NCBI GenBank assembly: GCA_029962745.1
Contig: CM057159.1
Location: 28,847,898-28,911,897 of the forward strand
Source of the DNA: Echinometra lucunter
Lineage: Eukaryota > Echinodermata > Echinoidea > Camarodonta > Echinometridae
Length of the DNA: 64,000 nucleotides
Direction: 5' to 3'
Shown: one piece after another, positions 34,836 to 63,387 of the stretch
Layout: every line of letters begins with the position of its first letter
Numbering within the stretch: position 1 is the stretch's first letter
The notes under the pieces: generated by a model
What the model was told of the DNA's origin: nothing
Seen by the model: only the letters and a program-made list of their open reading frames with translations
The model's database searches: none
Made by a program: the position numbers and the translations under genes

Positions 34836-37800
34836 ATGTCCATGACGCCCCTAGTCGGGATCCCCGTCAGCTACCTGACCGTTGTTGGTATGGTATGTTG
34901 CCTGGGCATTCAACTCACACAAGGGGCCTCCATCCTCGAAAAACTACACATCAGCGGGACGAGAACGAAACGGCATTCGAGCGACAGATGCAAACTTGAC
35001 CAGGGAATCCACCGACAATTAACAGAAATAGAAAGAGATATACAGATGATATTCATGCGTTATGTAAGTACCAACCTCTTATTTCAATGAAACAGAGTTC
35101 TTATCCATGTCCTCCAAATTTATTACGCTGAATCTTCCCTCCTCACGCTTCAAGATGGCTTCATTAATGACTTCACATCTATCTGAAGTTCCAATCAGTA
35201 TTGTATTCAATAAATTGATTTCAAGTGTTTTGTTATGTTTGTCAATGCATCACAGCACTTGATAATAAAAGACCTGATAGATGATAGAACATATATGGAA
35301 ACCCAATCAGACTTCAGTCTAGACTGTACAGAAATTTCGACATACCAAGATTATATATTTTTTCCAATTAAGTCAAAAGGACTTTAAGCAGATTGTTCTT
35401 TCTTGTTGACGCATTTGGTGACATCGGATTAAAGGATGAAGACAGAAGCGAATTTATGTTTTATTATACCTTTATTTGGTAGAAAAACAAGAATGCGAGA
35501 GAAGATGAAGAAGAAAGCGAAAGAAAATGAAGGAGAAAAAAAATCAATTGTCGAACACATGTCAAGATTTTAATTTAAACCTCACTGAACTTCACAGTAG
35601 TAAAGGTTAATTTTTTTCAAATCGTCATCGCATCAATTTTCTTATAGTTTCTTTTTGCGGTTTTGTGATTTGATAAATATTTTAATTATTCATTCTCATC
35701 ATTCTTATAACTGCTCAATGAATTTTATTGCTTTATTCATATCACCATTTTATTGTAATTCTTAATTTAGAGAAAAAATGACGTAGGTATACATGTCCTT
35801 CTTCTTAATTGCAGGTTTTCGACGCACCCGCAGGAGAATTATTAGAAAGCAGAGAGTGTTTTCCACCCCTACATGTAAGTATCAACATTGCTTTTACGGA
35901 AATGAAAGTTTTTGATTCACCACATCTCTATAAAAATAACAAATATTAGTTTATTTTATTCAGTTTTCTGATCACATATTTTCCCCCCAAGAGGACACTT
36001 GACAGTTTTTTATTTTTTATTTCAGAACATCTTAACAGTCCTCATAGCTGCCTCACTTTATTAATCATGTCAATAAACTTTTTGTAAGTAGTGGTAGTTG
36101 GTAATTTTTTTTTTTTTTTAAGAGTAGAAAATTGCAAGTTTCTTGTTCCTCCTCTATACTCACCTGAAATTCTTCAGAAGCTACGTAGAATTCAGTAAAA
36201 TTAACTAGGGTGTTTTTACGAGAGGGCTTTGGAAGAAGGATTGTATCTTCTGCTTGATATCCCACCATGCCCCCTTTCTTGTCAAAGTTGTTTCAAACCG
36301 GCGCGGCGCCACATGGACAAAATTCTCCTAAATTCTGTTGAAGGAGAGGTTTGATTTTATAGGTATAGTTACTGTTTCTTAAAAATTATCGCTTGGAGTA
36401 TTATATCCCGTCCCCAGTATAGTAACGGCCTTTGCTTTTCGAATATTATTTTCTTATCTTTGGTTTTTCAAAGTCGTTTCATATAGTTTATTGCACAGTT
36501 GTATATCTAGATTATGGTCAATAAAATGAATAGATAAATAATAAAAGAAAGATTTATAGATGTATAGATAGATAAACGAATAAGCAAACAAATAAATAGA
36601 TAAACAATAAAAGGAATAGATAAATAATAAAATGAATAGATAAACAATAAAATGAATAGATAAATAATAAAAGAAAGGTTTATAGATGTATAGATAAACG
36701 AACAAACAAACAAACAAACAAACAAATAGATAAAATTAAAAAATGAGAAAATGATTATATAAATGAGTAGATAAATAATGAATAAATATAAATAAATGAT
36801 TAAATGAATAAATTGCTAATCACATTTGTGAAAACAAAAAAAGCAAATTAATAATTCAGTTTGGTTTTTGTCTTCTTTGGGCGAATGAAGCTGATGAAAA
36901 GTTTTTTTTTCTATCATCTTTCCAGTCATCTGGTCACAATGGTCAATGGATAGCTGCCCGGGTGGAGCAGATCCGTCAATTTATGCCGTGGTATCGTGCA
37001 ATAGAGAGTCATGCAAGTCAACCTGACTCCGTCCTACAAGCAGGATTCTATCCAGCTTTCTCAGGTCTAGTTAATTTGATCAATTCTACTATAGATCGTC
37101 TTGAACACAGGGTAAGTCATTTTCCCCCTTCTTTCACCCCCTCTCCATCTTCTTCTCTTTTCCTACTTTGATCTTGACACACATTCCCTATACACCACCA
37201 GCGTAAATCCACTTTGAGGAGTGGGATGACCGACTTTTTTTGCCGATTTTTTCTGTCTAACTCACACTTATGTATAAGCAGAGACCCCCTTACACACATT
37301 TAAAATTTTTATTTTGCTAGCGAGCGAAGCGAGCGAGCCATTTTCAAAAAGAAATTCTAAAATATGATGGTCGTTCATGACAAATTATCAAAAGTTTTAC
37401 TGATTAATTTAAAATCATTTCTTCCTTAAAAAGTGGAGAGGGGGATATATCCCCCCATCCCCTGGGATTTACGCCAATGCTATACGCCCTCTTCTGTTGC
37501 TTCATAATCATCACCATCCATAATGAATAGTGATTACGTCATTTTCTGTTCATAGTGTTAAATAAAATCAAGAGAATTGCTTACATTAAGGTCTTGCAAA
37601 GCTCCCTTTGATTAGATGATTAATACAGTGGAGAAAAGAAGACGTTTATGAAGAAGATGAGGAAGAAGAAGAAGGAGGAGAAGAAGAAGAAGAAGAAGAA
37701 GAAGAAGAAGAAGAAGAAGAAGAAGAAGAAGAAGAAGAAGAAGAAGAAGAAGAAGAAGAGGGAGAAGGAAAAAATGTTGAGAAGGAGGAGGAGAAGAAGA

Positions 37801-39442
37801 AAAAAAGAAAAAGAAGAAGAAGAAGAAGAAGAGGGAGAAGGAGAAAAAGATGGAGAAGGAGAAAAAGAGGGAGAAGGAAAAGAAGAGGGAGGAGGAGGGG
37901 GGAGGAGGAGGAGGAGGAGGAGGAGGAGGAGGAGGAGGAGGAGGAGGAGGAAAAACCTTTCATGTTTCAAGGAGAATTGAACCCAGGCATCAGTGTGCTT
38001 TAAGTGAATAGAGATGGACAAGAAAGATAAACAGTGAAAGTTTGAACAAAATCAGACAATCCGTTCAAGAGTTATGAATTTTGATAGTTTAAGTAAACCC
38101 CTATTATAGGGATCATTGAGTTGGCAACTTTGCCAGCATCTGTGATGCCATTGTGGACAACTCTCCATTCATTTTGTGTATGATTTTTCCAAAAAAAATG
38201 GATTTATATGAAATCAAAAAAATTAATGCTTGCAGAATTGATGTAGCCATGTCATACTCAAACAGTAAATCATAAGAATTTCTATTTTTCTTGAAAATGA
38301 AGAAAATGTTAAATTATGCACACAAAATGAATGGAGAGCTGTCCACTATGACAACACAGATGCTGGCAAAGTTGCCAACCCAAGGATCCCTGTAATAGAG
38401 ATTTGCTAAAACTTTCAAAATTCATAACTCTTGAACAGATTGTCCGATTTTGCTCAAATTTACACTGTTTACTCTTCTTAGTCATCTTTATTCACTAAGA
38501 GCACACTGATGCCTGGGTTGCATTCTCCTTGATATCTGCCTCGCATTTGCCACTTCACTGGATAGAGGCACAGAGTTTACTCTAGATAATTAGATATAAA
38601 TTCTGAAATGCAATTTCTGGATTCACTTGTAAATTGTCACATTCATATATCATATTCTTTATCTCCTCACTCTTTATGTCTTTATTTCTAACTGACAGGT
38701 GGAAACTTTAAAAAATCGCTCTCTCTGCGCATGTCCAGAGAGTGTATTAGATGCAACAGCAGTATTAACATCGAACTGTCATGTAAGTTTATGGCACCCT
38801 TTGTCTGTTTCCTATTTTTAGCAAAAAAAAACTAATCATAATTCTTAGCCTCTGAGATGAGACTACAAGGCAAGCTTTATAGTCTATTGCTTGTAAAGCT
38901 GTACAGAGGAGATTGAGCTTACTTTTACTAGTTTTGGACGGCCAATGTGCGAATTAGCGAGATACATCAAGGAAAAAGAAAATACGGTTTCATTGTCTGT
39001 TCCATTAGCTTGAAGAAGAAAGAGAAAACATTTATCAAATATGTGTTTTTAAGCATCCCGCTTTGCTGGGAGTGTTACTGTTAAAATATCTAAAGAAAAT
39101 AGTTGTATAATCATATATTTATTTAGATCCTGCAGTGGATATGTAAATTTACTTTATGTAAATTTTCATTTGTTGTGTAGGTTGAAAGATTCAAAGAAAA
39201 CCCTCTAACAGATTAAAGCTTTCATGATGACAAATACCCCGAACGAGCTCCATGCTATTATTTTTTTTGTTGTTCATATTAATTTTCCTTTATCTTTGTA
39301 GGTGACGCCCCCTCCCGAGGTTATAGCCCCCGAGTCTTTGCGTGCCTATGTCGCCAGCGTGGTTAGGTTACTCCTTCAAATCATCAATGACCTTCACTTG
39401 TATCGTGTCAGGGAAAATATATGCAGAGATATCCCATTGTAG
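34836..39442 (+). CDS. Gene A: secreted helical protein, candidate cytokine, five exons
   Basis: Exons 34836-35063, 35815-35874, 36926-37111, 38699-38782 and 39302-39442 (TAG) give 232 residues. All four introns are phase 0, with gtaagt donors and NAG acceptors. Exon 1 (76 aa) has a signal peptide (core YLTVVGMVCCLGI, likely end near residue 30), a furin-type RTKR at 43-46, then a Cys-started amphipathic helix CKLDQGIHRQLTEIERDI. Exon 2 has 20 aa, exon 3 has 62 aa (helical, NST sequon at 149), exon 4 has 28 aa with SLCACPESV, and exon 5 has 46 aa with helix SLRAYVASVVRLLLQIINDL and a final Cys at 227. The mature part has six cysteines. Genes B and C share this plan. A four-helix cytokine acting through a cell-surface receptor is the leading idea, by inference from exon phases and helices. 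An unrelated secreted helical family is the alternative. Confidence 0.82.
36524..36830. repeat. A/T-rich minisatellite in intron 2 of gene A
   Basis: Units close to AATAGATAAACAATAAAATG and longer units containing AAAGAAAGGTTTATAGATGT are repeated. Tyr/Ile/Phe-rich open frames on the minus strand come from this repeat. Confidence 0.88.
37640..37952. repeat. (GAA)n then (GGA)n purine tract in intron 3 of gene A
   Basis: Over 300 bp of GAA and GGA triplets in a gene transcribed left to right, so the pre-mRNA would be strongly purine-rich here. The Lys/Arg/Glu, Ser and Phe/Leu open frames are repeat artefacts. Confidence 0.95.
37962..38532. mobile_element. Fold-back MITE of about 570 bp in intron 3 of gene A
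   Basis: The left arm (TCAAGGAGAATTGAACCCAG, GCATCAGTGTGCTT, AGAGTTATGAATTTTGA, GGATCATTGAGTTGGCAAC, AACTCTCCATTCATTTTGTG) is matched in inverse order by the right arm ending CCTGGGTTGCATTCTCCTTG. The arms are about 200 bp each with a short AT-rich centre. No coding capacity. Confidence 0.85.
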
Positions 39443-39796
39443 TGACGTCAGCATTCCAACTAGCCATCACAGACTTCTGCCCAGGTCATTAACTCGTAAC
39501 GCATGTCATTTTATTAGCCAAGAACCCTATGTATTAATCAATTATGATCGTGAAATCTATTTATCTACACTAATGATATCTATCTTTTTGTTCATCAATT
39601 ACATTTCACTTTTCTCTTCATATTTATTGCCTACAAGGTTTACGAGATGACATTCCCTTTGGCAGTATTTATATCAAAGACAACTGTTTTGTCTCTAAAA
39701 TAATAACACATTCACGTGCATATGAAGCCTATTTTAAGATCTGATCACATTGATAGGATATGAGTGTTGGTATTTATTTTCGTCTTAACTTATTCT

Positions 39797-39802
39797 ATTA
39801 AA
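39797..39802 (+). terminator. Candidate poly(A) signal ATTAAA for gene A
   Basis: ATTAAA lies 355 bases past the gene A stop. A canonical AATAAA is found only at 40685-40690. Either could be used. Confidence 0.3.
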
Positions 39803-40800
39803 TGTTTTTATATGAATATGTCTATTTTATGTACTATTTATTTATTTCATATGAAGCTGTTAGCAAAATATAGGAAAAGATATCAAATGGATGTTAACTC
39901 GGACTAATATCTTTATATTTGAAATGGAAATACTTTGTTGTTTCTTCTTGTTGAAATGTAAAGAAATGTAAAGAAAGCATGTTTGGATATGAGATGACGA
40001 TGGACTTGACTAGAATTGATTCGCATGAGAAATATTGATTTTTGATTGGAAGGTTTTCTGATGTCCTTGATGCTTCGCCAAGAACGGAATAATCATTTGA
40101 TATAATATCTTTGTAGATTTGCTATTCCTGAAATTATTCATCTTCAAAGTAAGTTGAAAAAGAAAATATACTTTATTCTCGGATCAATGTGATTAAACCA
40201 TCATTAGAAACTGTGTACACGATCTCGTTAAATCTCGGAAAATTTCGTCATACTGAGTGTTTCTCTATTTCCGTTCAGAGAGAGACAAAGTGATAAGAAA
40301 GTAAGACAATCCGTGTCCAAATCACTCCAGGGAAAAGTAGAAATTCAGCTACGAGAAGAAGTGTTTAAAAAGTTATCGTACATGTATAAACCATTACTAT
40401 TTATCTTGATCACTTTAATGTGCCATCAGTTATCAAAAGAGGTTTTTGTTCTTTTTATTTTTCTATTTTTTTTTTTTAAGATTAAGCAGTTTCATATTTG
40501 TGTCATGATCCATCTAATGGTATCTGAAGTAGACATAATGTATAAGTTGTATTCGTATATTATTGTGCTATTCGTTTGGGATACGTGCAATTTGAAATGA
40601 ATTCTATCGGAGCATTATTTTTTGGCTGGATTTATTGGATGCCTGAAAATGAAAAATCATGCAGAGATTATATTAACAGCGATGAATAAAGTCACATTAT
40701 TTTTGTGCCTAAACAAAGCTTTTAATGAAAACATCATTGGGTTGAGTCTCCATATTATTTCCAGGAGTCTCTGCTTTTGAGGGGTAGGTAGTAAGAGGAC

Positions 40801-41545
40801 ACTATAGTAATGGGGGGGGGGAGGAGGAAGAGAGAGGTTAGGGAATATATAGCAGTATGAGACTAGAAAAGAGGGAGAGAAAGAGAGAGAGAGAGAGAGA
40901 AAGGGAAGAAGGGGAATAGAGAGGTGGAGAGAGATAGAGGGAGAGAAGGCGGCGATAAGAAGAGGGAAATAAAGAGAGGGAGAGAGGAGGAAAGGAGGAA
41001 GAGAGTTGTGGGGAGAAAGAGAGACAGAGAGAGAGAGAGAGAGAGAAAGGAGGAGGAGACTATAAAAGAGAGAGAAACGGAGAGAAAGGAATTAGGGAGG
41101 AAGGGGAGGGGAGATGCGGGGAGAGAGAGAGAAGGAGGAGGAGGAACTATATAAAAGAGGAAAAACTATAGAGAGGTAGAGAGGAAAGGAGAAAGAAAGA
41201 GGTGGGGAAGAGAGAGAGAGAGAGAGATATAGGAAGGGGGACTAGAAAAGAGGAAGAGAGAGAGAGAGAGAGATAGGACGGAAGTGAGAATAGAGAGGTA
41301 GGAAAGAGATAGAGGAGGAGGAGACTAGAAAAGAGGGAGAAATAGAAAGATAGGAAGGAGGGCTGGGAAGAGAGAGAGAGAGAGGTGGGGAAGAGATAGA
41401 ATGAGAGGAGGAGAAGACTGGAACAGAGGGCGAAAGAGAGAGAGAGAGAGAGAGAGAGGTGGGGAAGAGATAGAATGAGAGGAGGAGAAGACTGGAACAG
41501 AGGGCGAAAGAGAGAGAGAGAGAGAGAGAGGAGACGGGATGGAGA
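40801..41545. repeat. Interrupted (GA)n tract of about 0.75 kb
   Basis: A long purine tract with higher-order duplication: a unit with GTGGGGAAGAGATAGAATGA and GGAACAGAGGGCGAAAG occurs twice between 41386 and 41515. Arg/Glu and Ser/Leu open frames here are not genes. Confidence 0.93.
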
Positions 41546-43046
41546 GACTGGAGTGATTATATAGCCTATTATCTGTTGAATGCCATGCATGAATATTAAT
41601 GAAACAGGATGAAGTAAAACTGAAACAGGAGAAAGAATGCATCATGCTACGGTTGCTGCGATTATTCATTAAATGGATACAGTTTTAATGGAAGGAGGAA
41701 GCAACACATCATGGATCAAGACAGAGAATAATGAACATGATGAAGACAAATTCTGAGCGGATGGCTCCTAAAATGCTTAATAAGAAGATTTGTATGTCTC
41801 TGTGATATGTCCAAGTACAATTCGATTTTAATATAATTCAGATAACAGTCACTTGGTTTCGTTAGTGGAATGTACGATGCATCTTTACTTTCCGAGATAA
41901 TAATCATAAAATTTACATAAGCTTCATTTAGTACATTTTTTAAATGTTATTCAACAAAGTTTCCCACATAGTTATTAGATATTCATATCATCAAAACCAC
42001 TATCTATTACAATCCTTTGAGAGAATACAAAATTCCTTTATTACTTAATAAGATTCTGTGATTCAATACACTCTTTAAAGTTTTTTTTTTTTACTAGTAA
42101 AGTCTTATCATGCCACTGAAAATTGTTGATATTTATGCATGAGGTTGATTCCATTATAAGACCTAGAATAACCTTTTATTTTGGCATACAATGAAATTTC
42201 GATTATCACTGCAATTGATGATTCTTTGGTGAGGAATACATTATTTTGGTGTTTTAACATGACATTTTGCCATTATCTCCCCATATAAAATCATGCTTAA
42301 ATGCTAAGTACTATTTTACTATTATACTCGACATCAAGATCAATTCATTTCTAACTATTTCCAATATTATTTTTCAAGGTTTTTGAATGAATACGGATTC
42401 ATAATCATGCACTTGCTATTTAACTATCAATAGCTCAAATAAATATCGAATAATAAACATTACATAAATAACATGATTATTATTGTTATTAACCAAACTT
42501 GACATTGATCAAAATCGTGCTGCTCTTTAATTTGATGATTCATCTTCAGCTCATATCATGCTGACAAGAACAAGTAGCAAAATGCATCCAAATAACTGTC
42601 AGCCTTAATGAAAAAGTAGGGTCCTCAACAAAAACTATCATGCTTTTGCCATGTTTGCAGGGGAAAAGATAAAAACGTTTAAGTATAATAAGTTTAAGTC
42701 TTTACACATTTACAATACCATATTAGAATATTAGGAACTTATTCTAATACTATAGCACTTGTATCTATGCAATTGTACACAGTTTTCTCTTGATCTTGGC
42801 GTCAATAGAATTACTATTACCTCAGCTTTACATAGTCGAGTTGCTCAAAGGCACTGAAAATGTGCTGTCAGTTACTTTTCCCCAAGTATTCATTAGATAT
42901 ACACCCGGGTTGAGAGAAACAAATAGTTCTTTGTCAAAGGCATTAGCAAAAAGAACTGCACATACATCAATAATTGTAGTGATAAGAGACCAGTATGCAA
43001 ACAAGTATTTTTAAGAAAGTGTTTGTACTTTCCTACGAGTTTTGTA
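41546..43046. other. Intergenic AT-rich DNA
   Basis: I see no supported gene or repeat in this stretch between gene A and the 43.0 kb transposon. Confidence 0.5.
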
Positions 43047-43841
43047 TATAGACCAATTTCACCTCCGGTTTATGTATTTGGCCCTCTATCGGCGACGCCA
43101 TTGCTGCGGTGGGCAAGCGCGCTGACCGCGATTGGCTCTGTGTACAAAATGAATGTAAGATATGAGATATGCCCCGATATTGTTCCATTTACTTTTTTCC
43201 AGATCAATAAAATTAAAGCATGGATACGTGGGTAGATGAGGTAAGACAATGGCCATATCTGACAGATGAAGGTATAATGTATTTTTGTACTTTCGATGGT
43301 TTTTCAACTTAGTTTTGTCAGTAAAAGTTAGATTGCTGCATAGAAGCCGTAGTAAACAGGAGCCATAAATCTTACCCTGTTTACAAAGTCATGTTTTCAC
43401 TCATTGAATTTTACGCCAAAGTACATAATGATAATGTTTCTTGACTTCAAAGTCCTTTCTGTTGATGTTTTTACCCACTGGCGACGAATTCCTTCACATT
43501 GCTTACGGAAACCTGTGTAGGGAGTACGGCTTCTCACACAAACAGGCTTCACGAGTCAAAAGCGAGTGAATTTCGCACTCAGTTAGCTTCCAATTTTTAA
43601 ACTTTCTCTAATTCTTGTGGCATTTGAGCACCGCACAGATGCGACCTGAATTTCCCTGATAATTTCTCATTGCAAATATAAAAAATAAATCTGCATATAC
43701 TGGTCAAAATAGACAAAAAATCGAACGAATGTACATAACGCGCTATTGACTTGTGTACTATAAAAGTTAGAACGCCCACCGCAGTATGTCGAACTGTGTC
43801 GAACAGTCTGCTGCCCTCTTGCGTTGTGAAATTGGTCTATA
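43047..43841. mobile_element. Non-autonomous DNA transposon, about 795 bp, perfect 16-bp TIRs
   Basis: The left end TATAGACCAATTTCAC and right end GTGAAATTGGTCTATA are exact reverse complements. The subterminal CCGCAGTATGTCGAA region and the left GCTGCGGTGGGC are also partly inverted. TA at each end suits a Tc1/mariner-like target site. Only short frames lie inside. Confidence 0.72.
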
Positions 43842-44193
43842 GGCTACTCCTTTAAGAAAAAAAATGTTTGCCTATATATTATTTATTGATAAAAGAAAAG
43901 TGCATGTGTACAATAATCCTGTGGATGAATTATGAAAAGGATGTAAGCATAGCCATCGACGTACTTCAGTTATTTGAAATGATATTACTCTTAATTGTAC
44001 AAGAATTAAGAGTGACTCAATAAATAAGTATACATTATGGAAATCATGAATATGATATTATGATATTAGAATAATAGACCTGAAATGTCTCTACAAATGC
44101 ATGCAAAATTTGAAAGTATGTTAGATGCTAAAAGACTACAATTTGCAGACATACATCATAGATGTTTACAGTAATATTAAGATAGAGAATAGA

Positions 44194-44886: not shown

Positions 44887-44892
44887 TTTATT
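44887..44892 (-). terminator. Candidate poly(A) signal for gene B
   Basis: TTTATT on the plus strand gives AATAAA on the minus strand, about 450 bases beyond the gene B stop codon. Confidence 0.4.
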
Positions 44893-45345: not shown

Positions 45346-48300
45346 CTAATCGGCCAAACATATAGCACGATAGCAATCTGCTCGACCTGTATCGGTAATC
45401 TCACGGCCACCAAGGTGCCTGACAAAATCCGTGATGCAGTGCAGCTTCTCACGCCAGACGAGCCAGAATCTGGAGGCAAAAAAATTGGTAGTGCCGTCAT
45501 CTCGTTCTAGCCATGGCTCCTCGTTCGTTGGTTCCTAAGAGAAGGAGAGAAAATGTCATTTGAAATTATACCGGTGTATACGTATAGTAGTAGAGGCAAG
45601 AATTCAAAGTACGCCATTTATAGCTCTAACTTAATTGTTTTATTAACAAAATTTTCACCCCTCCTCAGGTTTTCGGGCCTTCGTCAGTATACGGTGGAGT
45701 CATGGGTGGAGTTGTCGAAACCAATTCATCGATCTCTCGATGAACCAAATACATGTACGCGGCCGCCTGTCGTGTGCACATGCTCAAATCAAAATCTCCC
45801 CATAACCCTAACCGTATGTCCCCATACCAATTGCTTTTTGGTTTGCTTGTTTTTGTTTTTTTTTTTCCTTTTACGGGGACGTAATAAAGCCTTATAGTTA
45901 ACACATCCCCATACCACTAGTTTTATCAAACTACATATATATATCGTGATAAGGGGGGGGGGGGGTGAGAGGAGCGCACTACCCCCCCCCCCCCTCGCAT
46001 TCCTCTTTCATTAGAAGCATGAGGGAAAAAGTTAAATACAAGTTTCAATGGGATGGATACGCCATGTGATTAATGATAGTCTATTCGAATTTCTGGTTGA
46101 GAAATTTCCGAGCGTTTTGTAACCACTGAATTCCGCTGCTAGATAACTTTATTTTGATAATACTCACCACTGTTACGTTATAACCAGCTAACAGTGGACA
46201 GTTCTCTGCAACTGACTTGACCTGAAAAACAGAGATATATTCATCGCGTCTTAAATGGTGATAATTTTTGTTACAATAAAAGAATTGATTTACTATTGTT
46301 TATAACAAGTTTGGACCGGAGAAAGGAAAAAAAAAAGAAAAAAATAAATAAACAAACGCCATGTGCACGAATATCAAGAAAAGTATCGACAATAGCCACA
46401 ACACAAATAACAGCCAAACAACATGGTTACAATACCGACTTGCGATTGGAGCTTATATACTCATTCTTCAATTTGCTGCTGTTATTTACTTATTTATTTA
46501 TCTTTTTAATTTTTTATTTTGAAGGGGGGGGGGGGTAAAAAGGGGTAAATCTTAAAATTTCCTATACCAGCAAACAAAAATTGTTTTAAAAAAGGTTATC
46601 AAATTATACAGGTAGCTTTTAGGTACAAATTGAAAACAGGCGCGGAGCACAATAATGTCATTATTTATTTATTTATTTTTGTCTTTTCTAATGCGCCGGA
46701 GTATGCTGTGTTGGTTTTTGAAGAGGGCTACATGTGACGGTTATAAACCCCTCTTGTGCCCCACCGTTTCACCCGACCCATATTATGATTGCTGGGCCCT
46801 CTGGGAGAACATTACATAGTATTGAAGAGGCTACCCTCGGTAAATAAGACATATTGTTATCATCATTATTATCATTGTTGTTGTTGTTGTTGCTCTTATC
46901 ATTATATTTCTTTCTTTCATCTCATACAAGTAACTTTATTAATATATCTATAACAAATATTTGCATAATATATCCAAATGTTTCAAATCACTGATATTAA
47001 GGAAAAAATACTGAAATACTTAGTTGACTGCCCTTCAATCGTGATATTCACGAATAAATTTACAACTTAAATACTAATGTAATCATAACTTAGATTTGTC
47101 CACAATGCTTTAGCAAGTAGCCTTAACTTTTGTTTCTATTCCAAACCTTTTAACGTAATCTTTATAGGCCTAAATAACATATCTATTAATATGAATTAAT
47201 CATAAAATTCTTTAGTTCTGCAATATTGAATCAACTTTTCATACCTAAATTATCAATTAAGACTTCTGTCTGAAAAAACATTATAAAAATCATTTGTTGA
47301 ATTATTTTTCCAAAATACCTTGACTCTTTTGCATTCCAGATACCTTGGCATTGTCGTCTCTTGACATTTACATACATTACACTGATTATTACTTACTATA
47401 TTCCGTTGATTTTGAATAGATTGTCTTTTGATAGTAATATTCCAAGGAGAAGTTTAAAATCAAATTGTTTTATTCTGTTATCTTTTATATACTTAAATTT
47501 GAAAAGCATAACTATTCTAATCAAAGTCATTTGTAACTTGAAATCAAAAACAAATTTTGAAAAAAATACGTTTTTGTTTGGTTGTTTTGTTGCTTTCATA
47601 GATCTTATACATGTACTAATTAAATCACCCGATCAAATTCTCTTGACTGTACTCAGTATACTGTCGGTTTTGTCTTATTTTATCACATTATCGGAAACGC
47701 TTATTTTTCATTTTTGATTGCTGAAAATGACATAACAATATTTTTCTTATTCTGAAACATTTGAAATATCAATGATTTCTTTCCAACATCTGTTTGTTAT
47801 TATTGTTTAACATTCATCTTCCCGAAGTCAACCTATCTTTTAAAGAACAACAGTTTGTTAGCATAAATCATTTTTAATACTGTTATTCCAAATGATTTTA
47901 TTACCGAAATAACATGTACTTTAAGATATCAATGAATCGAAGATTCGCACAAACACTTAATAAACTCAGATAAAACTGTAGTAAACTTCTATCAGTATTG
48001 TTGTTATCATTGTTACTCACCTCGCAATATAGGTCTGTTAATTGTGATTCAACTTTTTGAACCAGTGTACCTATGCTTCTTTCTTTAGTCACTGTTAGCT
48101 TTGTTAGATTATTGACGAGTCGTGCATCTTCCCCAAATTGTGTCATTCCTTTAAAGGCCTCATTAAGTACGTATGAGATCATCTGGAATGTGAATGTTTA
48201 TATTGATATTTATAATAACAGTTTTAATAGCAGTACAGGTAATGATAGTAATAATGATAATGATGATAATAAATTTATAAAGGCCCTGTTTACATTTGCT

Positions 48301-49383
48301 GCCGGGGGCAGTGCTACGGGGAGGGGCAGGAGGCAGCCGCTCCCTATGATTTTTTTTCAAGTGATAAGAAGAACAAGAAGAAAAGAAAATATGCTGGGTC
48401 ATTTAATACGCAAAATCCAAAATTGGTCAAAGTTAAAAACCAGAACACCCCCCTATCAAAATACCCTGGCGCCGCCCCTGTTTGCTGCCTTTGCAGCTTC
48501 ATAGGTAATAACTGAGAAGCTAACTAAGAGTACTAGATCAATGATTATTTTTCATGAGTGATTGACCTACACTTTGGTTGTCTGGACAGTCGTGCCATTT
48601 GCGTTGCCAATCGAAGAAACTCCTATTTCCTGGTAGCAATTTCACTTTCTATACAAAGAAAAGTGCCAAAAAATCATTATTATTAGTTTGTAACATTTTA
48701 TGGTGAGTGAGTATTAATGAAATAGGCATACTGTGGTCAGACAATGTGAGTAACATTTCGACAAGCACATGTTAAAGACTGAAATTACTGCAAAATTTTC
48801 TTTTGAAGCTGCAGAGGAGATGTGTTTTTTTCCCCCTGCCTGAAACCACAGTGAAAATGAAAAATACTTCATAATGCACTCCTTATATAAAACGATTGAT
48901 TATCATGTTGTGTCACAGAGAGTTTTTTTTAATGTGATTTCTTTAGCTGAATGTCAATTTGTACATTTGGATGGGCGATACACTCTATTTCAGATTGGAT
49001 GATATTTGAAAAATCGTTTTAGAAGTTATTTTTTTGAAGATAAGATTAATTGGTGATAAGCCAATCTTAATTACCAATTTGTATCTTTATCTCAAATATT
49101 TGCTACGTTTATGTTATCAAGATATTATACTCACTTCAAATTCACTAGTTTGCTGGTCTTGGAGATTGTCTTCAAGCTGCTTTAACCTGCTGGTTAAATT
49201 ATGTGATAGGAAACAAGCTGCCGCATCAATTGTCCCGTTTGGGCAAATTGAAGACACATCTTCGTCACTGCTCGCTGATCTTTCTTCGATATATCGACTC
49301 CGCGTGAGCAACGCAAACTGGAGCAGCAATACCGCCACCAACGCTAGCTTTTTGTGTTGTATATGCATCTTTCCTTTTAACAT
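45346..49383 (-). CDS. Gene B: secreted helical protein, candidate cytokine, five exons
   Basis: On the minus strand the exons are 49383-49135, 48648-48571, 48182-48021, 46221-46168 and 45534-45346 (TAG). They give 243 residues, and all four introns are phase 0. Exon 1 (83 aa) has a strong signal peptide (LALVAVLLLQFALL) and a Cys-led helix CFLSHNLTSRLKQLEDNL. Exon 2 (26 aa) carries FFDWQRKWHDCP; it is too small to appear as an open frame but has a good branch region, acceptor and gtaggt donor. Exon 3 (54 aa) ends DLYCE, exon 4 (18 aa) has CPLLAG, and exon 5 (62 aa) has FWLVWREKLHCITDFVRHL and ends ADCYRAICLAD. Eight mature cysteines and sequons NGT, NLT, NLT and NVT fit a secreted glycoprotein. 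The CPLLA motif and tail link it to gene C, and the plan links it to gene A. The cytokine role is inferred, not shown. Confidence 0.82.
46222..48020 (-). other. Intron 3 of gene B (1.8 kb)
   Basis: Contains a G run near 46525, a worn repeat with GGGCCCTCTGGGAGAACATT at 46792-46815 followed by GGCTACCCTCGGTAAATAA, and a 118-codon hydrophobic plus-strand frame at 47361-47717 in AT-rich DNA that I do not accept as a gene. Confidence 0.55.
48290..48490. repeat. Dispersed repeat fragment in the 3.9 kb gene B region (intron 2)
   Basis: The word CCCTATCAAAATACCCTGGC followed by GCCGCCCC at 48451-48478 is nearly repeated in inverse form at 55810-55835 (GGCGTCAGGGTATTTTGATA). The shared, GC-rich edge points to fragments of one mobile family of unknown type. 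Confidence 0.45.
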
Positions 49384-53610: not shown

Positions 53611-53830
53611 TAGGCCCCGTCACATATTAGCGAATCGAGCTAACGAATGCCTAACGAACAGTTATTTTTTTAAGTCCAGATACGCTCAAATTAGCTACTA
53701 TGTGACAGGACATTTCGAACGCTATTGTAGCCAAGAATTTTAGCGTATTTGAGCGTATCTGGACTTCAAAAAAAATAGTCGTTCGTTAGGCATTCGTTAG
53801 CTCGATTCGGTAATATGTGACGCGGCCTTA
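53611..53830. mobile_element. Fold-back MITE with TIRs of about 85 bp
   Basis: The left arm TAGGCCCCGTCACATATTAG, ATCGAGCTAACGAATGCCTA and AGTCCAGATACGCTCAAA is matched by the inverse right arm TTTGAGCGTATCTGGACTTC, TAGGCATTCGTTAGCTCGAT and GTGACGCGGCCTTA. The arms make up most of the 220 bp. Confidence 0.88.
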
Positions 53831-54095
53831 AGTTTTGTAAGGGGTAGTGTGGCAAAGACGGAAAAAAAGAATTACTTCACAAGTATACAAAAGAATGAAC
53901 TTCACAGGACAAGTGAAAAGGAAAGTAAGAAAGACAATTCGAAAGAACACCTCCTTGCTTCTTTCGGATGTAGTTCAGCAACCAAGGCTATAAGATACAT
54001 TAGTCAACTTGAATTTTCTTGAACAGAGAAGGTTATGCCAACTGCTTTGTGTTATCTGGGACAGTGCCTAAGACTTTGCTTCACTGAGGATTTAC

Positions 54096-54288
54096 AAAGG
54101 AGGATTGGTCAAAATAACCAATGTGTTGGTGATTATGTGTCCGACCAAAAAATTGGTCAAAATCAACCAAAATGTTGGTACATTTTGGCCAATAATTTGG
54201 TAACCATCATATTGGTAAATCTTAACCAATATTTTTGGTCGGACACATATTCACCAACATATAGATTATTTTGACCAATCCTTTTTAG
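54096..54288. mobile_element. Fold-back MITE built on TTGGTCAAAATAACC
   Basis: Left AGGATTGGTCAAAATAACCA, GTTGGTGATTATGTGTCCGA; right TCGGACACATATTCACCAAC, ATTATTTTGACCAATCCT. The centre also repeats TTGGTNAANNTTGGT-like words in both orientations. About 190 bp. Confidence 0.83.
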
Positions 54289-54933
54289 AGTGTAAGAATA
54301 ATACGAAGGCTTATGTATAGTCGTGGTTAATGATTGAGAAGATTGCACCAAAGTGAAATCGGTGAAGTGAGAAAAAAAATAGAATGGAGTAATAAAGAGG
54401 CAGAAAATTCATTAGAAATGGAATTATTGGGCCGGTGTTTCCCAGGTTAACAAAATGTAGTCTGATATTGATTTCTAGATACGCTGTCGCTCTATTTCAG
54501 AGACTTTCTAGTAGCGAAAACAAAGTTTGTCAACCTCTGTTGAAAGAGAGAGTTCATGTAGTTTGCGAAATGAATCCGGAAGAAGAAATTTGCTTTTACG
54601 TAAAAACAATTGTTGTTGATATCATTTCTTTACGAGAGAAAAGTAGAATACAAATATACAAAGTAAACGTAGTATAATCAATTCAACATAGTTTGACAAG
54701 TATAGAAAGAGAAAACAATAGTGACATAAACATAATAGAGGGAAGGTTGTAAATATACCAGGTCCACTGCTTATATGGGCGAATGGCAGGTTTTGCATGT
54801 TTTGTTTTGGGTTTTTTTTTTACATTATATCTTGAATATCGTGTTGTTGTTTTTTTAATGCGTGTAGGCCCTACACGATCAACTTCATAGTTTGATTACA
54901 AAATGGGGAAAGAAGACACGAACAAGAACTAAC

Positions 54934-55252
54934 TGAATGTAGTTTGTGAAGTGAATACGGAAGAAGAGTTTTACTTAATTACGTGAAACAATGAACGTAA
55001 TGGAGAAAGAAGAAACGGAAAGAAACGTAGGAAACGAACTGAAAGTTGTGAATTAAGTAGGAAGAAGAAATTTACTTTTACCGAAAAACAATAACCTAAT
55101 GGGGAAAGAAGAAACGGAAAGAAACGTGGGAAACGAACTGAATGTAGTTTATGAAGTGAGTGCGGAAGAAGGAGTTTATTTTATTTATTTTCATTTTGTA
55201 AAATGAATTTAGTGGGGAAAGAAGAAACGCAAAGAAACGTGGGAAACGGAGA
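54934..55252. repeat. Minisatellite: three units of about 100-112 bp
   Basis: Each unit runs from GTAGTTTRTGAAGTGA-like sequence through GGAAGAAG, an (A/T)-rich middle and GGGGAAAGAAGAAACGGAAA to GAAACGTGGGAAACGAACT. A shorter relative lies at about 54555-54612. Confidence 0.8.
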
Positions 55253-55976
55253 AGAACCAACCGCAGACAAAAAAGGGTTACGTCAATTTTCAATTACGAA
55301 ATCAGCAACTGAAGTCGTTTCGGATCTTGAGAGGTTTTCGACAACAGTTTAACAAAATTATGAATGCGATTGGTTTCGCCAGGCATACGCAAGGGTGAAA
55401 AACGTATACTTTGAAAGTTGCAATCCAAGAGGGAAAATATAGTTAAAAATAAAAGAGAGTCAGCGATGTGACTCATTTAAGGGTTCGAAATTCAGTTTCA
55501 CAACAAACAAATGACATTGGAGGAGGGGAATAAGTGTAAAGAAAAGTTTTCCCTACTTTCTACATAAATTAAGGCCATCATGTCATTAGATCTCCATTGT
55601 TTGTCCCAACATGCTCAATATCCATTTGTAAATCCCAGCACAGAAGGTTGTTTGAATTCTCACATCAGCTGCTGAATATATTCTTGAAAATAGCAAACTG
55701 TACCTTGTTTTTGTGTTACTCATGGTATAGGACATCGATGTTCCCCTGCATACGAAAAACTAAGCTTCTTAGAATGTTGTATTGTCCTGAATCAGGGGGG
55801 GGGGGGGGCGTCAGGGTATTTTGATAGGGCCGGGGGGGGGGTGGAGGGGAAGCTAACCCATAGGTGAGAATATTTACGTTTTAATGAACAAAATAAGGGT
55901 TATATATAATTGCATGACCCAGCCCTTGCTTTCCCCACACTCTCCTTACTTCTTCCTTCTCTTTTTCCCCTTCTTG

Positions 55977-56009
<33 letters not shown>

Positions 56010-56500
56010 ATCACTCGAAAAATCATAGGGGTCGGTCACCCACCTCCCTCCCCCATCCCTATAGTGCTGCCCTGTCCTGAATAGATCTTACAAGATTAAT
56101 CGAATCTGACCAAGATGTGAGGCTTGAGGTTAAACTTTGACTGAAGACACACACAGAGCTATTTAGAAAATAAAAGAGATATAGCATATCGGATATTTCA
56201 CGAGAAAGATATTTGTCGGAGATAAATAACAATGAAGTATTTGTTTTTAAATTGGAATTCATTCCGAATGACAGAGGAGAAAATTTAGCAGGGTTCCGTG
56301 AATTTTTAAATGCTGTTTAGAACTATCAAGTTCCTGAGAATAGGTCTATATTTTCTTTTCATATATATCAATCAAAATCAAAGAAATATGTTGAAAAAAT
56401 CAGTCTAGCACTTCTAAGTCAAAGGACTGTCTTAAAAGTTAGAGTAAAAACAACAAATCTCAGTCCATTAATGTGTGATTCAATGATGACCTTATTTTAT
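55253..56500. other. Intergenic DNA with G, C and CT runs
   Basis: A poly(G) patch is at 55795-55850 and (CT)n at 55979-56006. No supported gene. Confidence 0.5.
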
Positions 56501-56501
56501 T

Positions 56502-56795
56502 CATTAAAAAAGAGTGAACGCTTTCACTCTGTTAGGGGTGAATTTCAGAAGAGAGTACATTTATTGTGAATTAAGAGTGAATTAAGAGTAAAAATTGTGA
56601 TATTCACTCTTTATTCACTCTTTTAGGGGTGACCTCAGTGATCACTCAAATCCTTAAGTGATCACTGAGGTCACCCCTCAGAGAGAGTGAATATCACAAT
56701 TGTTATTCTTAATTCAATCTTATTTCACTCTAAATGCACTCTCTTCTGAAATTCACCCCTAACAGACTGAATGCGTTCACCTTTTTTTTTTATAA
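56502..56795. mobile_element. Fold-back MITE with TIRs of about 130 bp and a palindromic centre
   Basis: The left arm has AAAAAAGAGTGAACGCTTTC, GTTAGGGGTGAATTTCAGAA and TTAGGGGTGACCTCAGTGAT. The right arm inverts each: ATCACTGAGGTCACCCCTCA, TTCTGAAATTCACCCCTAAC and GAATGCGTTCACCTTTTTT. The centre TGATCACTCAAATCCTTAAG / GTGATCA closes the hairpin. Confidence 0.9.
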
Positions 56796-57819
56796 AGAGA
56801 TTATACAAAATTAATGCATCCGTTAACTAATCATCCGGCTAATTACTGTTGATAAGTTGAAAGAGATTCAGGAAAGATAATTACGCTATTACATCGGCCG
56901 GGGGGGGGGGGAGGTGGAATGGGGGACTTCCCAGGCCTGGGACATCTTACCCCTTTCCCTTGCCCGACATGCCAGAAGGATCTCGGTGTTGACTGGTATC
57001 ATTTTTTTTATAGACAACAAATAATTATATATACATGCAGTAATTGTCCTAATTTAGTTTGCCTGCTACGCTCGCTCGCGGGGTCATTAATGACTTCAAT
57101 ATTTGCTCTCCCGTCTAGCCCTTTCAAGTAGTGTCTAAAGTCCATTATTGCACAATCCGAAATCTGCTCATCCCGACTTTTGCCAATACCGTATAACAGA
57201 TTATATGTGGAAAGTTTGTTGACGTTTGTTGACGTTCGTAGATGTGCATGAATATGAAAAGATGGTTAATGATTTCATAAACTTAATTGTGATTAATTTA
57301 CTTAAGCTTTATAATGATCATGATGATATGACATTGTATGTTACATGGAAGTAAACGACTGCCAGTTGTGAACTCGTTTGATTTTTTTTTTCAGTCGAGT
57401 CAGATTATTTGAAACCAACCTAGAGTAAACTTATTGCAACTAATGAAGTTGATTAGACGTCCAAATATAATTGCAATAACGATTTTTTTTGTTGTTAAAT
57501 GTTTGAAATTACAAATGATTTCGGGTCATAAACGTTTCCCAATGTAGGCACACGTAAGATGTCACATCCAGGTTCTTCTCTTTGTTTAAAATTTCCTACT
57601 GGTCCCTCACCACCTTATTCTCTCTCATATCATTACTCATCGTCCTCATCATCCTCTCTATCATTCTCGTCATCGTTACATCATTTTCCACTATCATCAT
57701 ACATCACCGTAATCAACGTTGACAGCAGCTAGTCATTATACCTCGTCAGCATTACTGGTAATGGTAATCATCAACCATACCAACTAATAAGGGCCCTTGG
57801 AATCATACTAATCTTCATC

Positions 57820-57862
57820 ATTATCACTACCATCACCATCATCATCATCATCATCACCATCG

Positions 57863-57902
<40 letters not shown>

Positions 57903-58020
57903 CCACCACCACCACCACCACCACCATCATCATCACCAGAACAACCACCATCTTCATCCTCATCATCAACACCACCACCACCACCACCACCATTATCATC
58001 ATCATCGTCATCATTATCAC

Positions 58021-58061
<41 letters not shown>

Positions 58062-58256
58062 ACACCACCATCATTATCATGATCATCATGATCATCATGA
58101 TCATCATCATCATCATCATCATCTTCTTCTTCTTCTTCTTCATCCTCCTCCTCATCATTATCAACATCATTATTACAACAGCATGGCGCTCCTTCTCCTT
58201 ACGATCCTCCTCCTCCTCCTCCTCCTCCTCCTCTCCATCGTCGTCATCATTCATTC
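57820..58256. repeat. (ATC)n / (ACC)n / (TCC)n array
   Basis: A run of CAT, CAC and CTC triplets for about 430 bp, ending in a short ATTCATTC. The Met/Asp/Val-rich minus-strand open frame is repeat-coded. Confidence 0.96.
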
Positions 58257-59627
58257 ATTCGTGCCATGAACTAAACTAAATAATCACGATCGTTTTCATG
58301 ATTATTATACCACCATAAACATTAACTTCGACATTCTTACATTATAAAGACAAGTATGCAACTGGAAATTGAGTACATACATGTATGAATTGAATACCAG
58401 GTAGGCAGATTTTTAGTTACTTTATGATTAAAAATGTCTATTTAAATCAGTTTTCGACATACAGGTCTAAATATTCGTAGAACAAACACATTTAAACAAT
58501 TCTAATCATAACAATGAATTGGAATACACCTTACTTTCGAAAAAGATGCAGCATATTTGAGGCACGTCTGTAACAGTATTACAGTGATTAAAGTCTCCAT
58601 ATAAATAAGATGAATATAATTTAATAGATGTCTTTTTCTATATAGTATTAAGAATATACCCTGAATTTGAAACAACACTTTAGTGTGAAAAACACTGATA
58701 AATATAATATAATCAATCACCTTAGAGCCAATGCATGAGGCAAGCTAAAAATGAGACATATTATAGCTAAGGAGGCTATAAGGTCACATTATGAGTTTCG
58801 ATTAGGTTTAATATAATAATAATAACGATAAACTTATACTTTTATAGCGCATTATGCGGGGTGTTTCTATGCGCTTTACATAAAGTGACTAAATTTTAGT
58901 CTACTGTATTTTCTTTACATTTGGTTATGTTATATACATCCAAAATCTAACGAAAATTCTGACAAAATCAGAACGAAAGTCTTGCAGCAGTATAATACAA
59001 TTCAATGGAATAGCAACTTAGTTAAATTCTTGAGTAATTGTGGAAATTTTCTATTTCTGTACATCAGTGATCAAATTATAATTCCAATAATTACAAATAA
59101 TAAAGCATGAAAATAGTCAGTTCTTAATTAATTCTTTAATTAATTTCATCATTATTCAAAAGTATATACTGATGTTGATTTTTCAAAATGCAAATAACAA
59201 CAACAACAAAATCCGTAAATACACTTAACTGAAATAACTTTAACAGGTTAATAATGATAGGCAGAATTTCAAACAAAGCAGTTTCTTTTTTTTCGGAGAG
59301 TCACCATAATACAGTGGCATGAATAATGGGACAACTTGCGCAAGCCCCCCCCCCCCCAACCCCAAATCAAATGACGAATAGAAGAAGAAAAAAAAAGAAG
59401 GGAAATTCGAAAGAAGATTAGAAACCCCCCACAAAACTACCTGCCCACTCCTTCTCATGTGGCGGTCTTGCAAATTCGAATTTTGTGCACCGAGTAAAAC
59501 TGGTGACATTCCATCGCCCCCATGCATGTCCCCATGATCATTGCTACATCCATGATGCTCATACACCCTCAGTGGAAGAGCAAACGCTACACCACTTCCA
59601 CTCGGATGTGATCCTAAATTATCAGGT
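58257..59627. other. Intergenic DNA and 3' side of gene C
   Basis: AT-rich, with a dispersed repeat fragment at 58806-58880 (TTATAGCGCATTATGCG, TATGCGCTTTACAT) and a C run at 59346-59358. TTTAAT at 59135-59140 (ATTAAA on the minus strand) is a weak poly(A) candidate for gene C. Confidence 0.45.
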
Positions 59628-60732
59628 TTACATCGAAACCTCTTCTCCTGCAGCACTCTCAATCCTGTTAGCCCGTTTCACACAGAGCATGTCTTCTGCG
59701 TAGGACTGGCAATTCCCACTGTCGGTACCTGTGAACCGACCGACCCAAAGTCCATTTAACACTTCCTGGATCTTGGATAAGAACTGCATCCAGTTGGAGG
59801 CGCTGCTGGCTGCCGGTAACAAGGAGACTGATGCTTGTGTATCCACCTACAGAGCGGAAAAAAAAAATGTTCGACAAAGTAAATCTCATTCAGAGAAGTG
59901 TTGACAGTAATGGGATAATACGGCCATTTTCAATCCCACAAACAAACACGAGGGCGGAGGGCACATTTTTTTTATAACCAATGCATTATCCATGATAACT
60001 AGGCTGTCTTTGGATTAAAGGAGAATGAAACCGTGGGGGGGAAATCGATTTTAATGAAAAGAGAGGATAGAGAGGAACAATTTTTTTTAAAGTTCCATCA
60101 TCAACCGTTACGAAATAAGAAAGTAATGAAAGTTTGAAAATTTACTTTCAATTTACTTTATACGGCGATCCTCAAATTGGCAATATTGCTTCACTAATGG
60201 CAGGTTTAGAAGGACAACTCTCGATACATTTTCCCATTATATATCTTGAGCTAAGAAGGAGACAAGCATCATCTTTAGAGATAATGGAGAAAATATGCCA
60301 TTTTGTGTACAAAACGTATTGAAAGTTGTCCTTAAACCTACCATTTTGAAGTAATATTGACAGTTTGAGGAATCGCCATAGAAAGTAAATTGAGACTTTT
60401 CAAACTTTCATCATAACTTTCTCATTTCGCAACCGTTTTTTATGGAACTTTTTTTTTTTTTAAAGAAATTGCTTCTCTCTATCCTCTCGTTTCATTAAAA
60501 TTGACCCCCCGGGTTTCATTCTCCTTTAAGCATAATACATGAGTGAATTCAGTAGGCAAACTGGAAGAGGAGTGAACGGTCAAAACGCTTGCCTGGATAT
60601 AACGTCAGACATGCTATAATATTTCAGGCAACTACATACTACGCGATGTAAGTGTCATAATGTAAACGAGAATATTATTCTGACAGGGAGAATAGATCCG
60701 GAATAGATAATGAAGAATCATTAGAATGTGTA

Positions 60733-60774
<42 letters not shown>

Positions 60775-63387
60775 ACAAACAAACAAAAGAGAATATTCTT
60801 ACCTCTTCCAGTTGTATAGGAGCCTGGGCGAGTAGTGGACATCTTGTGATCATGGTAACGAGCTGAAAGAGATCCACAGGAAACACGAGTGATCACGTGA
60901 TACAAACTCGGTAAACGGATTCGCCAACACATAATGGGAAACAATACAAGGGATACTTTATTTGTTTCAGTTACTGATTCCGTTTTTTTTTTATTGCACA
61001 AAATCTGTAATTCGGCTTTTGAGCCGCGGTTGATTTTTATATTAATAAACCATTTCAAATCAAATCAAAAAAAAAAAAAAAAATGGTCACTGACAAAAAT
61101 CGAACGATCATGGCGTATGTTTAAAGGGGGTGCAACCGGCGGCCTACACCCCCACGATTGAAGACTAAGAAATGGAAACCAAAAGACTTGCAAAGGGTCC
61201 TCGCGGCCAGTCCACATGAACTGGAGCATTGGTTAAAATAAATTACTTGCACCCCCCCCCCCCTTCCAGGCGTCTCTAGACCATTACGAATTGCGATGTC
61301 TAACAACTTATGCTGTCCCCAAAACCAACTCTCCCGAGGGCAAATAAAATCTACTAATAAAACATCATCTCACTCACCGACGTGTTCAGGAGATCATGCG
61401 CCACGGACGAATCGGTGTTTGAGCGTTGTGACGTCGACTTCCACTAAAGACTCACCGGCGTGGTCGAGTTCATGGATGAAGGAGTTCATGAGAAGCAATC
61501 CACGGCAGAGAAATGTCACTCCCAATTCATTTCTTCTACGACTGGTATCGTCCATCTGAATCTCGCGGAAGAGAAAAGAAAGTAGTCAGTTTCCAGCAGT
61601 GTATATAGATGGTATCAGTAGCGAACACAATATGAAAAATCGTTCTGCATGACGTCAAGTACCAGGAAGAAAAAAATACTCTAGAGAATAACTAAACCTT
61701 AATATGGCATGAAGATGTTAAATTTGTCTTTTAGAAGTAGAAAATCATGAAGCATAAAGGGGTTATCAAAGGTTGGGTGACCCGATCCAGATCCACAAAC
61801 AAATCACCCAAATACTTACAGCGATACAACTTGATAAAGAACTCGTAGGAGGCTTTAAACAATATATTTTCAGTCCAGAGGGAGTATCTGGTATTTGATT
61901 TGACAGCACCCTTTTGCAGATACAGTGGAACTTTATTTAATTTAATTTAATTTAATTTAATTTTATTTATTTATTTTTTTTTTTTTTGGGGGGGGGGGGG
62001 TGTCTAACTTCCAAACCGGCAGGGTCCAAAAGCGGAGCCATCGGTTTTGCAAGTCTACGAACAATTTAGAAACTTTTTTCTTTTACAATTTAAGGGTTTT
62101 GATTTTTATCTTTATCATTACATGTATTTTCAGCCTAAATTGTGTGGGGGTGAGCCAACCCAGTCCCTGCTTCCGCAGCCTCTGTATTGTATAACTTGTT
62201 TTTCTGAAAAGAGTTGAAATACATGTATATCTTCTTCCCGAATCTTTCTACCTTACTTGTATTATAATATCACAATAAAATACCAAGGCAATTAACAAAA
62301 GAGGATGACTATGAACTGTAATGGAAGAATCAACGCTACGCCACTGCCACTCGTATGTGATCTTTTATCATGTTCTAATCCGCCTCTCATGTAGCACTCC
62401 CAATCCGAAATTCCAATCCGAAATCCCAGTCTGAAAATCTTCGTATACATGTACTTACCGCTGGGTTGATAGTAGCAAGTAGCCTAGTTCGGTACTAAAG
62501 AAAGCAAAGAGAAAATTAAAAGAAAATAATCAAACAGTAGAAAGGATCTTGTACCCAAGAATGTAGAAGGTTATTTGTCTGGCATTTTCAAATAATTCTC
62601 CCCTTTTCTTGTAATATGGACATTTTCATCGAAAAGAAATTTAAGGAAAACACATTTAAAGTTCTAAAGCTTGCCTTCCATATTTCCTCTGTCATGACTG
62701 CAAATTTCGGAGTTGTTCCGTTAATTCTAAAGCTCTCAAAATCTGGATTTCCGATTGTGTGTCTCCGAGAGCTTAACCAAACCAAGAATGATAGGTGAAT
62801 CGACAAGATTATTCATATCAATACTTACAAAAAAGACAGATTCCAAAACAAAGTGAAATCTCAAAAAGTAGAGTGATGACATCTATCAGTGGATTTTTTT
62901 CAAGGGCAAAGTCAGCATTTTGAGACGGATTAAAGTAAACGTACGTCCTACCCCCCCTAAAAAAATCCTTACCACCACCACCTCCCCCCCCCCCAAAAAA
63001 AAGAAAAATAAAGAAAAAAAAAAGAAAAAAAAAGTGATCAATCAAATGACAAAAAGGCACCACTGGAAATATAACTTTAAGCTTTTCCTCTGCCCTCCTC
63101 CCCCTGTCTCTGCCCCTAGCCCCTCCCCCCCCCCTCTCTCTCTCTCTCTCTTGCTTCGGAAGCTTACCTCGCCCTCCATCATGTCCATGACGTCATTGAA
63201 AGCCAAAAAGATGGAACTGTTTAAGAAGCAATGCTTCATGGACACACGTGCACGGGAAGCCCTGGGTAACGATGTTCCTCCACGTATTCCACACGGTGGC
63301 CATACTTGACCTTCCACATGAAATGAGGTCGTCAGGACGATTGTCAGAGCAAGTCACGAACACCAACAGCGGGATGGGCGTGATCAT
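59628..63387 (-). CDS. Gene C: third member of the secreted helical family, with two +1 frameshifts (possible pseudogene)
   Basis: On the minus strand the exons are 63387-63168, 62494-62459, 61555-61378, 60862-60803 and 59846-59628 (TAA). Exons 2 (12 aa), 4 (20 aa) and 5 (72 aa) are intact and phase 0. Exon 4 has TRCPLLAQAP, matching CPLLAG of gene B. Exon 5 has a helix region SNWMQFLSKIQEVLNGLW and tail cysteines GNC...MLC. Exon 1 (220 nt) starts MITPIPLLVFV in one frame, and the rest of the signal peptide (LALTIVLTTSFHV) and the helix MKHCFLNSSIFLAFNDVMDM lie in another. Exon 3 (178 nt) starts in frame after its acceptor but needs a shift to reach its donor open (SSVAHDLLNTS). Each is one base over a multiple of three. 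Either this is a decaying paralogue or the assembly has two single-base errors. A 54-nt alternative exon 2 (62882-62829) with a good donor also exists. Confidence 0.68.
60018..60532. mobile_element. Fold-back MITE of about 515 bp in intron 4 of gene C
   Basis: The left arm AAAGGAGAATGAAACC, AGAGGATAGAGAG, ACTTTCAATTTACTTTATAC and GGCAGGTTTAGAAGGACAAC is matched inversely by GTTGTCCTTAAACCTACCAT, AAAGTAAATTGAGACTTTTC, CTCTCTATCCTCTC and GGGTTTCATTCTCCTTT. The arms are about 200 bp each. A 62-codon frame inside is not a gene. Confidence 0.88.
60737..60785. repeat. (CAA)n microsatellite in intron 4 of gene C
   Basis: Thirteen or more CAA units followed by CAAACAAA. It lies 17-65 bases beyond the exon 4 donor. 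Confidence 0.95.
61378..61555 (-). pseudogene. Gene C exon 3, frameshifted
   Basis: Acceptor cttccgcgagattcag, then ATGGACGATACC and a frame with LGVTFLCRGLLLMNSFIHEL that runs into TGA 18 bases before the donor TCG/gtgagt. The final frame SSVAHDLLNTS is open only from 61441 downward. The exon length is 178 nt, against 162 and 186 in genes B and A. A second donor-like GCCG/gtgagt at 61455 would give a phase-1 end, unlike every other junction in the family. Confidence 0.6.
63168..63387 (-). pseudogene. Gene C exon 1, signal-peptide exon, frameshifted
   Basis: ATG at 63387 in an acaaaATGa context begins MITPIPLLVFV. The hydrophobic run continues in the next frame and then leads to PPCG and the Cys-led helix, ending GAG/gtaagc. 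The switch falls near 63350 (GTGACTTGCTCTGAC on the minus strand). Removing the one-base excess would make 73 codons ending in phase 0, in line with 76 and 83 codons in genes A and B. Confidence 0.6.

Follow-up and report, generated by a model that had tools for sequence, protein, structure and literature searches.

The window analysed here is a stretch of 64,000 nucleotides from the genome of the sea urchin Echinometra lucunter (contig CM057159.1, positions 28,847,898 to 28,911,897 of the forward strand). It carries two intact genes, named A and B, and a third locus, C, in which the reading frame is broken. A sequence-only reading had called all three candidate helical cytokines. For A this is well supported by the predicted model of a homologue and by its structural neighbours; for B it is plausible, but for C the case is weak.

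Gene models of A, B and C

Gene A was re-read from the sequence on the plus strand at 34836-39442, as an intact gene of five coding exons and 232 amino acids. Exon 1 (34836..35063, 76 codons) encodes a signal-like stretch, a propeptide ending in RTKR, the first conserved cysteine, and helix A. Exon 2 (35815..35874, 20 codons) covers the loop between helices A and B, i.e., the AB loop, with a conserved cysteine, and exon 3 (36926..37111, 62 codons) encodes helix B with the larger part of helix C. Exon 4 (38699..38782, 28 codons) completes helix C and continues into the CD loop, with three conserved cysteines, and exon 5 (39302..39442, 46 codons and the stop) contains helix D and the last conserved cysteine.

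Gene B, re-read in the same way, is an intact gene of five coding exons and 243 amino acids on the minus strand at 45346-49383. Its putative helices were compared with shuffles by helical moment, on segments chosen by eye. Exon 1 (49135..49383, 83 codons) encodes a signal-like stretch, two cysteines, and amphipathic segment A (p 0.0855). Exon 2 (48571..48648, 26 codons) has a weak donor (score 0.5). Exon 3 (48021..48182, 54 codons) contains two amphipathic segments (p 0.0135 and 0.011), exon 4 (46168..46221, 18 codons) the CPLLA motif common to B and C, and exon 5 (45346..45534, 62 codons and the stop) amphipathic segment D (p 0.1295) and a cysteine near the C-terminus. The same comparison gave p 0.019, 0.2205, 0.0655, and 0.1505 for A, and p 0.49, 0.42, and 0.0375 for three segments of C. 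In A and B, the introns are GT-AG, all junctions are in phase 0, no internal stops were found, and the N-terminus is hydrophobic. Both N-termini passed a simple hydropathy filter, and the signal-like stretch and secretion are predicted.

Locus C lies on the minus strand at 59628-63387, with the exon order of A and B and usable splice sites. Exon 1 (63168..63387, 220 nt) and exon 3 (61378..61555, 178 nt) are not multiples of three, and each of them shifts the frame. The other three are exon 2 (62459..62494, 12 codons), exon 4 (60803..60862, 20 codons), and exon 5 (59628..59846, 72 codons and the stop). Three five-exon genes with phase-0 junctions had been described from the sequence alone; this description was exact for A and B, down to the codon counts, and only partly right for C. 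The counts of about 73/12/59/20/72 codons given for C were right for exons 2, 4, and 5 and the splice sites, but "73" and "59" had masked the two frame breaks. Therefore, C was rejected for now as a working gene. It is probably a pseudogene, with an assembly error as the alternative cause of the broken frame.

The architecture was also searched for unguided, on both strands of 264 kb, i.e., the window with 100 kb on each side. A chain was an ATG-led hydrophobic first exon followed by four phase-0 exons within set size ranges. Because A, B, and C themselves supplied these ranges, the search is supportive and not blind. At the first cut-offs, only A was recovered, once with an alternative last exon, and B was missed because of its weak exon-2 donor. 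When the cut-offs were loosened post hoc to admit this donor, A (38.4) and B (30.3) were the only chains, and one further chain (score 11.5) appeared at still looser cut-offs. No chain was found in the reversed sequence or in any of 20 block shuffles. Gene A does not depend on this search, as three other urchins have collinear homologues that confirm it independently.

Conservation, predicted fold and exon plan of A

End-to-end matches to the protein of A were found in Strongylocentrotus purpuratus (83%) and in Lytechinus pictus (77%). A Diadema setosum homologue, found via a profile, aligned with 92% of the S. purpuratus protein at 48% identity. All three are annotated merely as "uncharacterized". 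The sequence-only reading had assigned the DNA to an invertebrate-type genome, and the closest proteins are indeed those of sea urchins. Six cysteines of the mature part are common to A and the three homologues; the first precedes helix A, the next is in the AB loop, the CD loop has three, and the last is near the C-terminus. The RTKR ahead of the mature part is found in A and in the S. purpuratus and L. pictus proteins, but not in the Diadema protein. Protein database searches gave homologues of A in urchins only, and no starfish homologue. No Pfam family matched A, and PDB sequence searches gave no cytokine. The IL-6 family itself is described as poorly conserved in sequence in an excerpt of PMC13203501.

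The genome searched comprised 743 Mb in 2266 contigs. The search for paralogues of A gave seven matches, i.e., its own five exons and two weak places (E 1.14 and 2.12) that were read as chance. In the 200 kb of flanking sequence, no extra copies were accepted among the matches listed (the first 80, which do not include the exon 4 and exon 5 pieces of C). A B-like stretch at coordinate 249939 of the joined window and flanks was rejected on reading its sequence. Matches to GH18 chitinase (E 0.00098) and Pumilio (E 0.0013) were dropped as chance, as was DUF3658 for B, which was below the cut-off. The PF00726 profile had no match in the genome, which is uninformative, as the controls were equally silent.

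The fold was read from a predicted model of a homologue of A, not from a solved structure. Four helices are modelled at residues 45-66, 92-117, 128-154, and 187-214, and are joined by connections of 25, 10, and 32 residues, i.e., long, short, and long. The check by fold prediction and Foldseek that had been proposed for A returned, in this model of the homologue, a bundle of four helices in which the AB and CD connections are long. The structural neighbours shown are mostly helical cytokines. After realignment, the list is led by IL-11 (13.7), IL-27 (12.7), CNTF (12.2), and prolactin (12.2). IL-6 (11.5), tied with the best interferon (11.3), stands below them, and IL-19 (9.2) is the only row of the IL-10 family shown. 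In the order given by Foldseek itself, the groups are more intermingled: interferon-tau comes third, and interferon-lambda takes ranks 14, 25, 34, and 39. The IL-10/interferon-lambda family, which had been preferred at first, is thus not at the top of the realigned list.

The exons were mapped on the same model. Helix A ends where intron 1 interrupts the coding sequence (66|67), and the AB loop is encoded by exon 2. Exon 3 extends to residue 149, covering helix B and the greater part of helix C; residues 150-177, with the remainder of helix C and the CD loop, come from exon 4, and helix D from exon 5. A has one phase-0 intron more than the IL-6-type gene layout, and this intron lies in the CD loop. 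According to PMC2654155, a structure of five exons is common to the six genes of the IL-10 family, IL3, IL21, and IFNL1, with introns that split the helices analogously and fall between codons. A resembles this group in intron number and phase and in analogous positions relative to the helices, and the exon argument made from the sequence alone therefore stands. The pattern of five coding exons, all in phase 0, with helices divided at set places, expected of IL-10 and interferon-lambda, is found in A, and IL3 and IL21 have it as well. A thus combines an exon plan of class II type with a predicted fold that appears to rank nearest the long-chain cytokines of class I. By its predicted fold, A may be filed as a helical cytokine that is nearest class I and has a class II-like gene plan, and it is a candidate member of either family.

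Candidate receptor and JAK-STAT exons

It had been proposed that cytokine receptors and JAK-STAT components be sought in the same genome, and a class I-like receptor candidate, a JAK FERM exon, and STAT exons are present. The STAT_alpha exons lie on contig C1 at 20.103 Mb (3.1e-13), and the JAK FERM exon on contig C12 at 22.974 Mb (FERM_F2 2.3e-6; FERM_F1 1.6e-10). PF06328, the immunoglobulin (Ig) domain of gp130 and the leptin receptor, exceeded the cut-off at two places, i.e., contig C1 at 52.754 Mb and contig C7 at 9449552. Rescored alone, the C1 exon reached 30.7 bits for PF06328 (cut-off 28.8), with general Ig families higher at 38.7, and the C7 piece reached 28.2, under the same cut-off. 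By eye, the Lep_receptor_Ig-like exon on C7 has an apparent repeat of the same stretch just upstream, and it is possibly part of a second receptor.

The receptor candidate is that of contig C1, with the Ig exon at 52754078 and further exons downstream on the same strand. Class I receptors follow the rule CX(9-10)CXWX(26-32)CX(10-15)C in their first module, as given in an excerpt of PMC1963337. The first module (D1) of the candidate, formed by a phase-2 splice, reads CX9CXWX30CX14C, in agreement with this rule. The motif was absent from the six unspliced frames of the 264 kb, a control that is not fully like-for-like. The D1 module matched LIFR_D4 at E 0.0015, below the cut-off, and no PDB receptor in a sequence search. 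No first half of module 2 could be located, and a donor over the threshold is lacking in two exons. The WSXWS motif is noted as slightly variable in the same source (PMC1963337). No W[SG]XW[ST] was found in the three forward frames of 20 kb at the candidate; PMISWSKPVKGRT stands about where the motif is expected, in an exon with PMISWS. Because a clean WSXWS is lacking, the receptor is called a candidate only.

Two fn3-like exons follow downstream, with fn3 scores below the cut-off; neogenin is their best match (3e-6), and IL12RB2 and gp130 are weaker. A membrane helix comes next, and then RRLPQPYIPP, a Box1-like stretch as read by eye. The tail is open for 536 codons and has many tyrosines, one of them in YDMQ. 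Genome searches with IL6Ra-bind PF09240 and with the class II receptor family Tissue_fac PF01108 gave no match, and both are uninformative, as the controls were silent too. Two studies report an IL6R in S. purpuratus (PMC13203501) and raised IL-6-receptor-annotated contigs in sea star wasting disease (PMC4503460); both fit the receptor candidate. Downstream of the candidate, at about 8.6 to 10 kb of locus L034, an open frame of 450 codons has what looks by eye like a BTB-type stretch.

Interpretation and surroundings of the locus

It is probable that A is a secreted long-chain four-helix cytokine, most like IL-6 and IL-11, which acts via a gp130-like class I receptor, with B as its tandem relative and C as a decayed copy. 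A would be made as a prepro-protein with a signal peptide and a short propeptide ending in RTKR. Furin-type trimming at this site may occur in A and its two closest homologues. The mature chain would fold into an up-up-down-down bundle, with disulphides among the six conserved cysteines to hold it together. The released protein would bind urchin cells with the gp130-like receptor, perhaps coelomocytes, and trigger JAK-STAT signalling in them, and it could have an immune or haematopoietic role.

A and its kin might instead be class II cytokines, i.e., IL-10/interferon-lambda-like, that act on class II receptors. The exon plan is common ground with that family. However, IL-11, IL-27, CNTF, and prolactin outrank the interferons and IL-19 after realignment, and the receptor candidate has the class I motif in D1; the silence of PF01108 in the genome, shared by its controls, carries no information. 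Since both the realigned ranking and the receptor type point to class I, the class II assignment was kept as a rival and is considered unlikely. A secreted helical protein of another function, e.g., a gamete, matrix, or pheromone protein whose bundle arose by convergence, was also weighed. A has no sequence link to cytokines, its homologues were found in urchins only, and four-helix bundles arise easily. Against this, most of the structural neighbours are cytokines, the helices are joined by long, short, and long connections, and the intron positions match those of cytokine genes. Together these three points make convergence less likely, and we regard such a protein as quite improbable.

The kinship of B and C with A is a separate matter, and the cluster could be one cytokine gene beside unrelated or spurious models. 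Profile comparison detected no similarity between A and B, none of 260 candidates was a homologue of B, and C is broken in two exons. The likeness of B and C is weak; it is significant in exon 1 (p 0.0175) and exon 4 (p 0.0015), but not in exon 2 (p 0.22), exon 3 (p 0.86), or exon 5 (p 0.11). Nevertheless, the four putative helices of B fall in the same exons as those of A, no chain of this architecture besides A and B was recovered from the 264 kb at the loosened cut-offs, the shuffles gave none, and cytokines lose sequence similarity fast. Unrelated neighbours are thus a minority possibility that we hold to be rather doubtful. From the helix placement, the likeness of exons 1 and 4, and the lack of similarity between A and B, it is reasonable to consider B a probable fast-evolving tandem relative of A with a putative fold, and C a possible decayed relative.

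Among known systems, the closest include the gp130 ligands of the IL-11/IL-6 family (IL-6, IL-11, IL-27p28, CNTF, LIF, and OSM); identity in the realigned rows is 4 to 13%. A differs from these ligands in having no Pfam match, an RTKR propeptide, and its own six-cysteine pattern. The insect Upd ligands and Drosophila helical factor are also invertebrate ligands or putative helical cytokines; they are protostome genes with a different make-up. The Upd ligands act via Domeless, JAK, and STAT according to PMC13203501, and the Drosophila helical factor is cited in PMC2248247. A factor of the starfish Asterias forbesi, like A, comes from an echinoderm, and a link between the two is a hypothesis; no starfish homologue of A was found. 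This starfish factor, of Beck and Habicht (1996), is said to be a biochemical activity. It was reported, in the title of their paper, as IL-6-like (cited in PMC9465101 and PMC4503460). In the open-licence literature searched, the S. purpuratus gene LOC100888194 is named nowhere, and titles and abstract openings mention no echinoderm four-helix cytokine gene; neither is proof of absence.

These results suggest that an immune messenger of IL-11/IL-6 type is older than the vertebrates. More tentatively, A, B, and C could represent an undescribed ancestral family of deuterostome helical cytokines, with an IL-6/IL-11-like fold, a gp130-like receptor, and an exon plan of IL-10 type. Classes I and II would then derive from one five-exon phase-0 gene that pre-dates the split of echinoderms and chordates, and A-type genes may in that case encode the long-known "IL-6-like" activity of echinoderms. 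Together in one urchin genome, a cytokine-fold ligand and a candidate receptor would supply the missing half. Helical cytokines would be dated before the split of echinoderms and chordates, and the common origin of both classes could be tested in an animal whose immune cells are accessible.

Vertebrate-type synteny was rejected, because the recognised neighbours, i.e., PPAR-like, SH3-, and Sel1-repeat-like genes, match no vertebrate cytokine locus to our knowledge. On the minus strand of the window, a 451-codon open frame at 16665-18017 has no Pfam match at E 0.1. In the flanks, at window coordinates of about +75 to +84 kb and +154 kb, open reading frames like Sel1-repeat (LRP2BP-like) and SH3-domain (SH3PXD2-like) proteins were seen by eye. 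On the plus strand of the window, two exons at 4199-5175 encode a nuclear receptor ligand-binding domain, with Hormone_recep below the cut-off and a PPAR-like appearance by eye.
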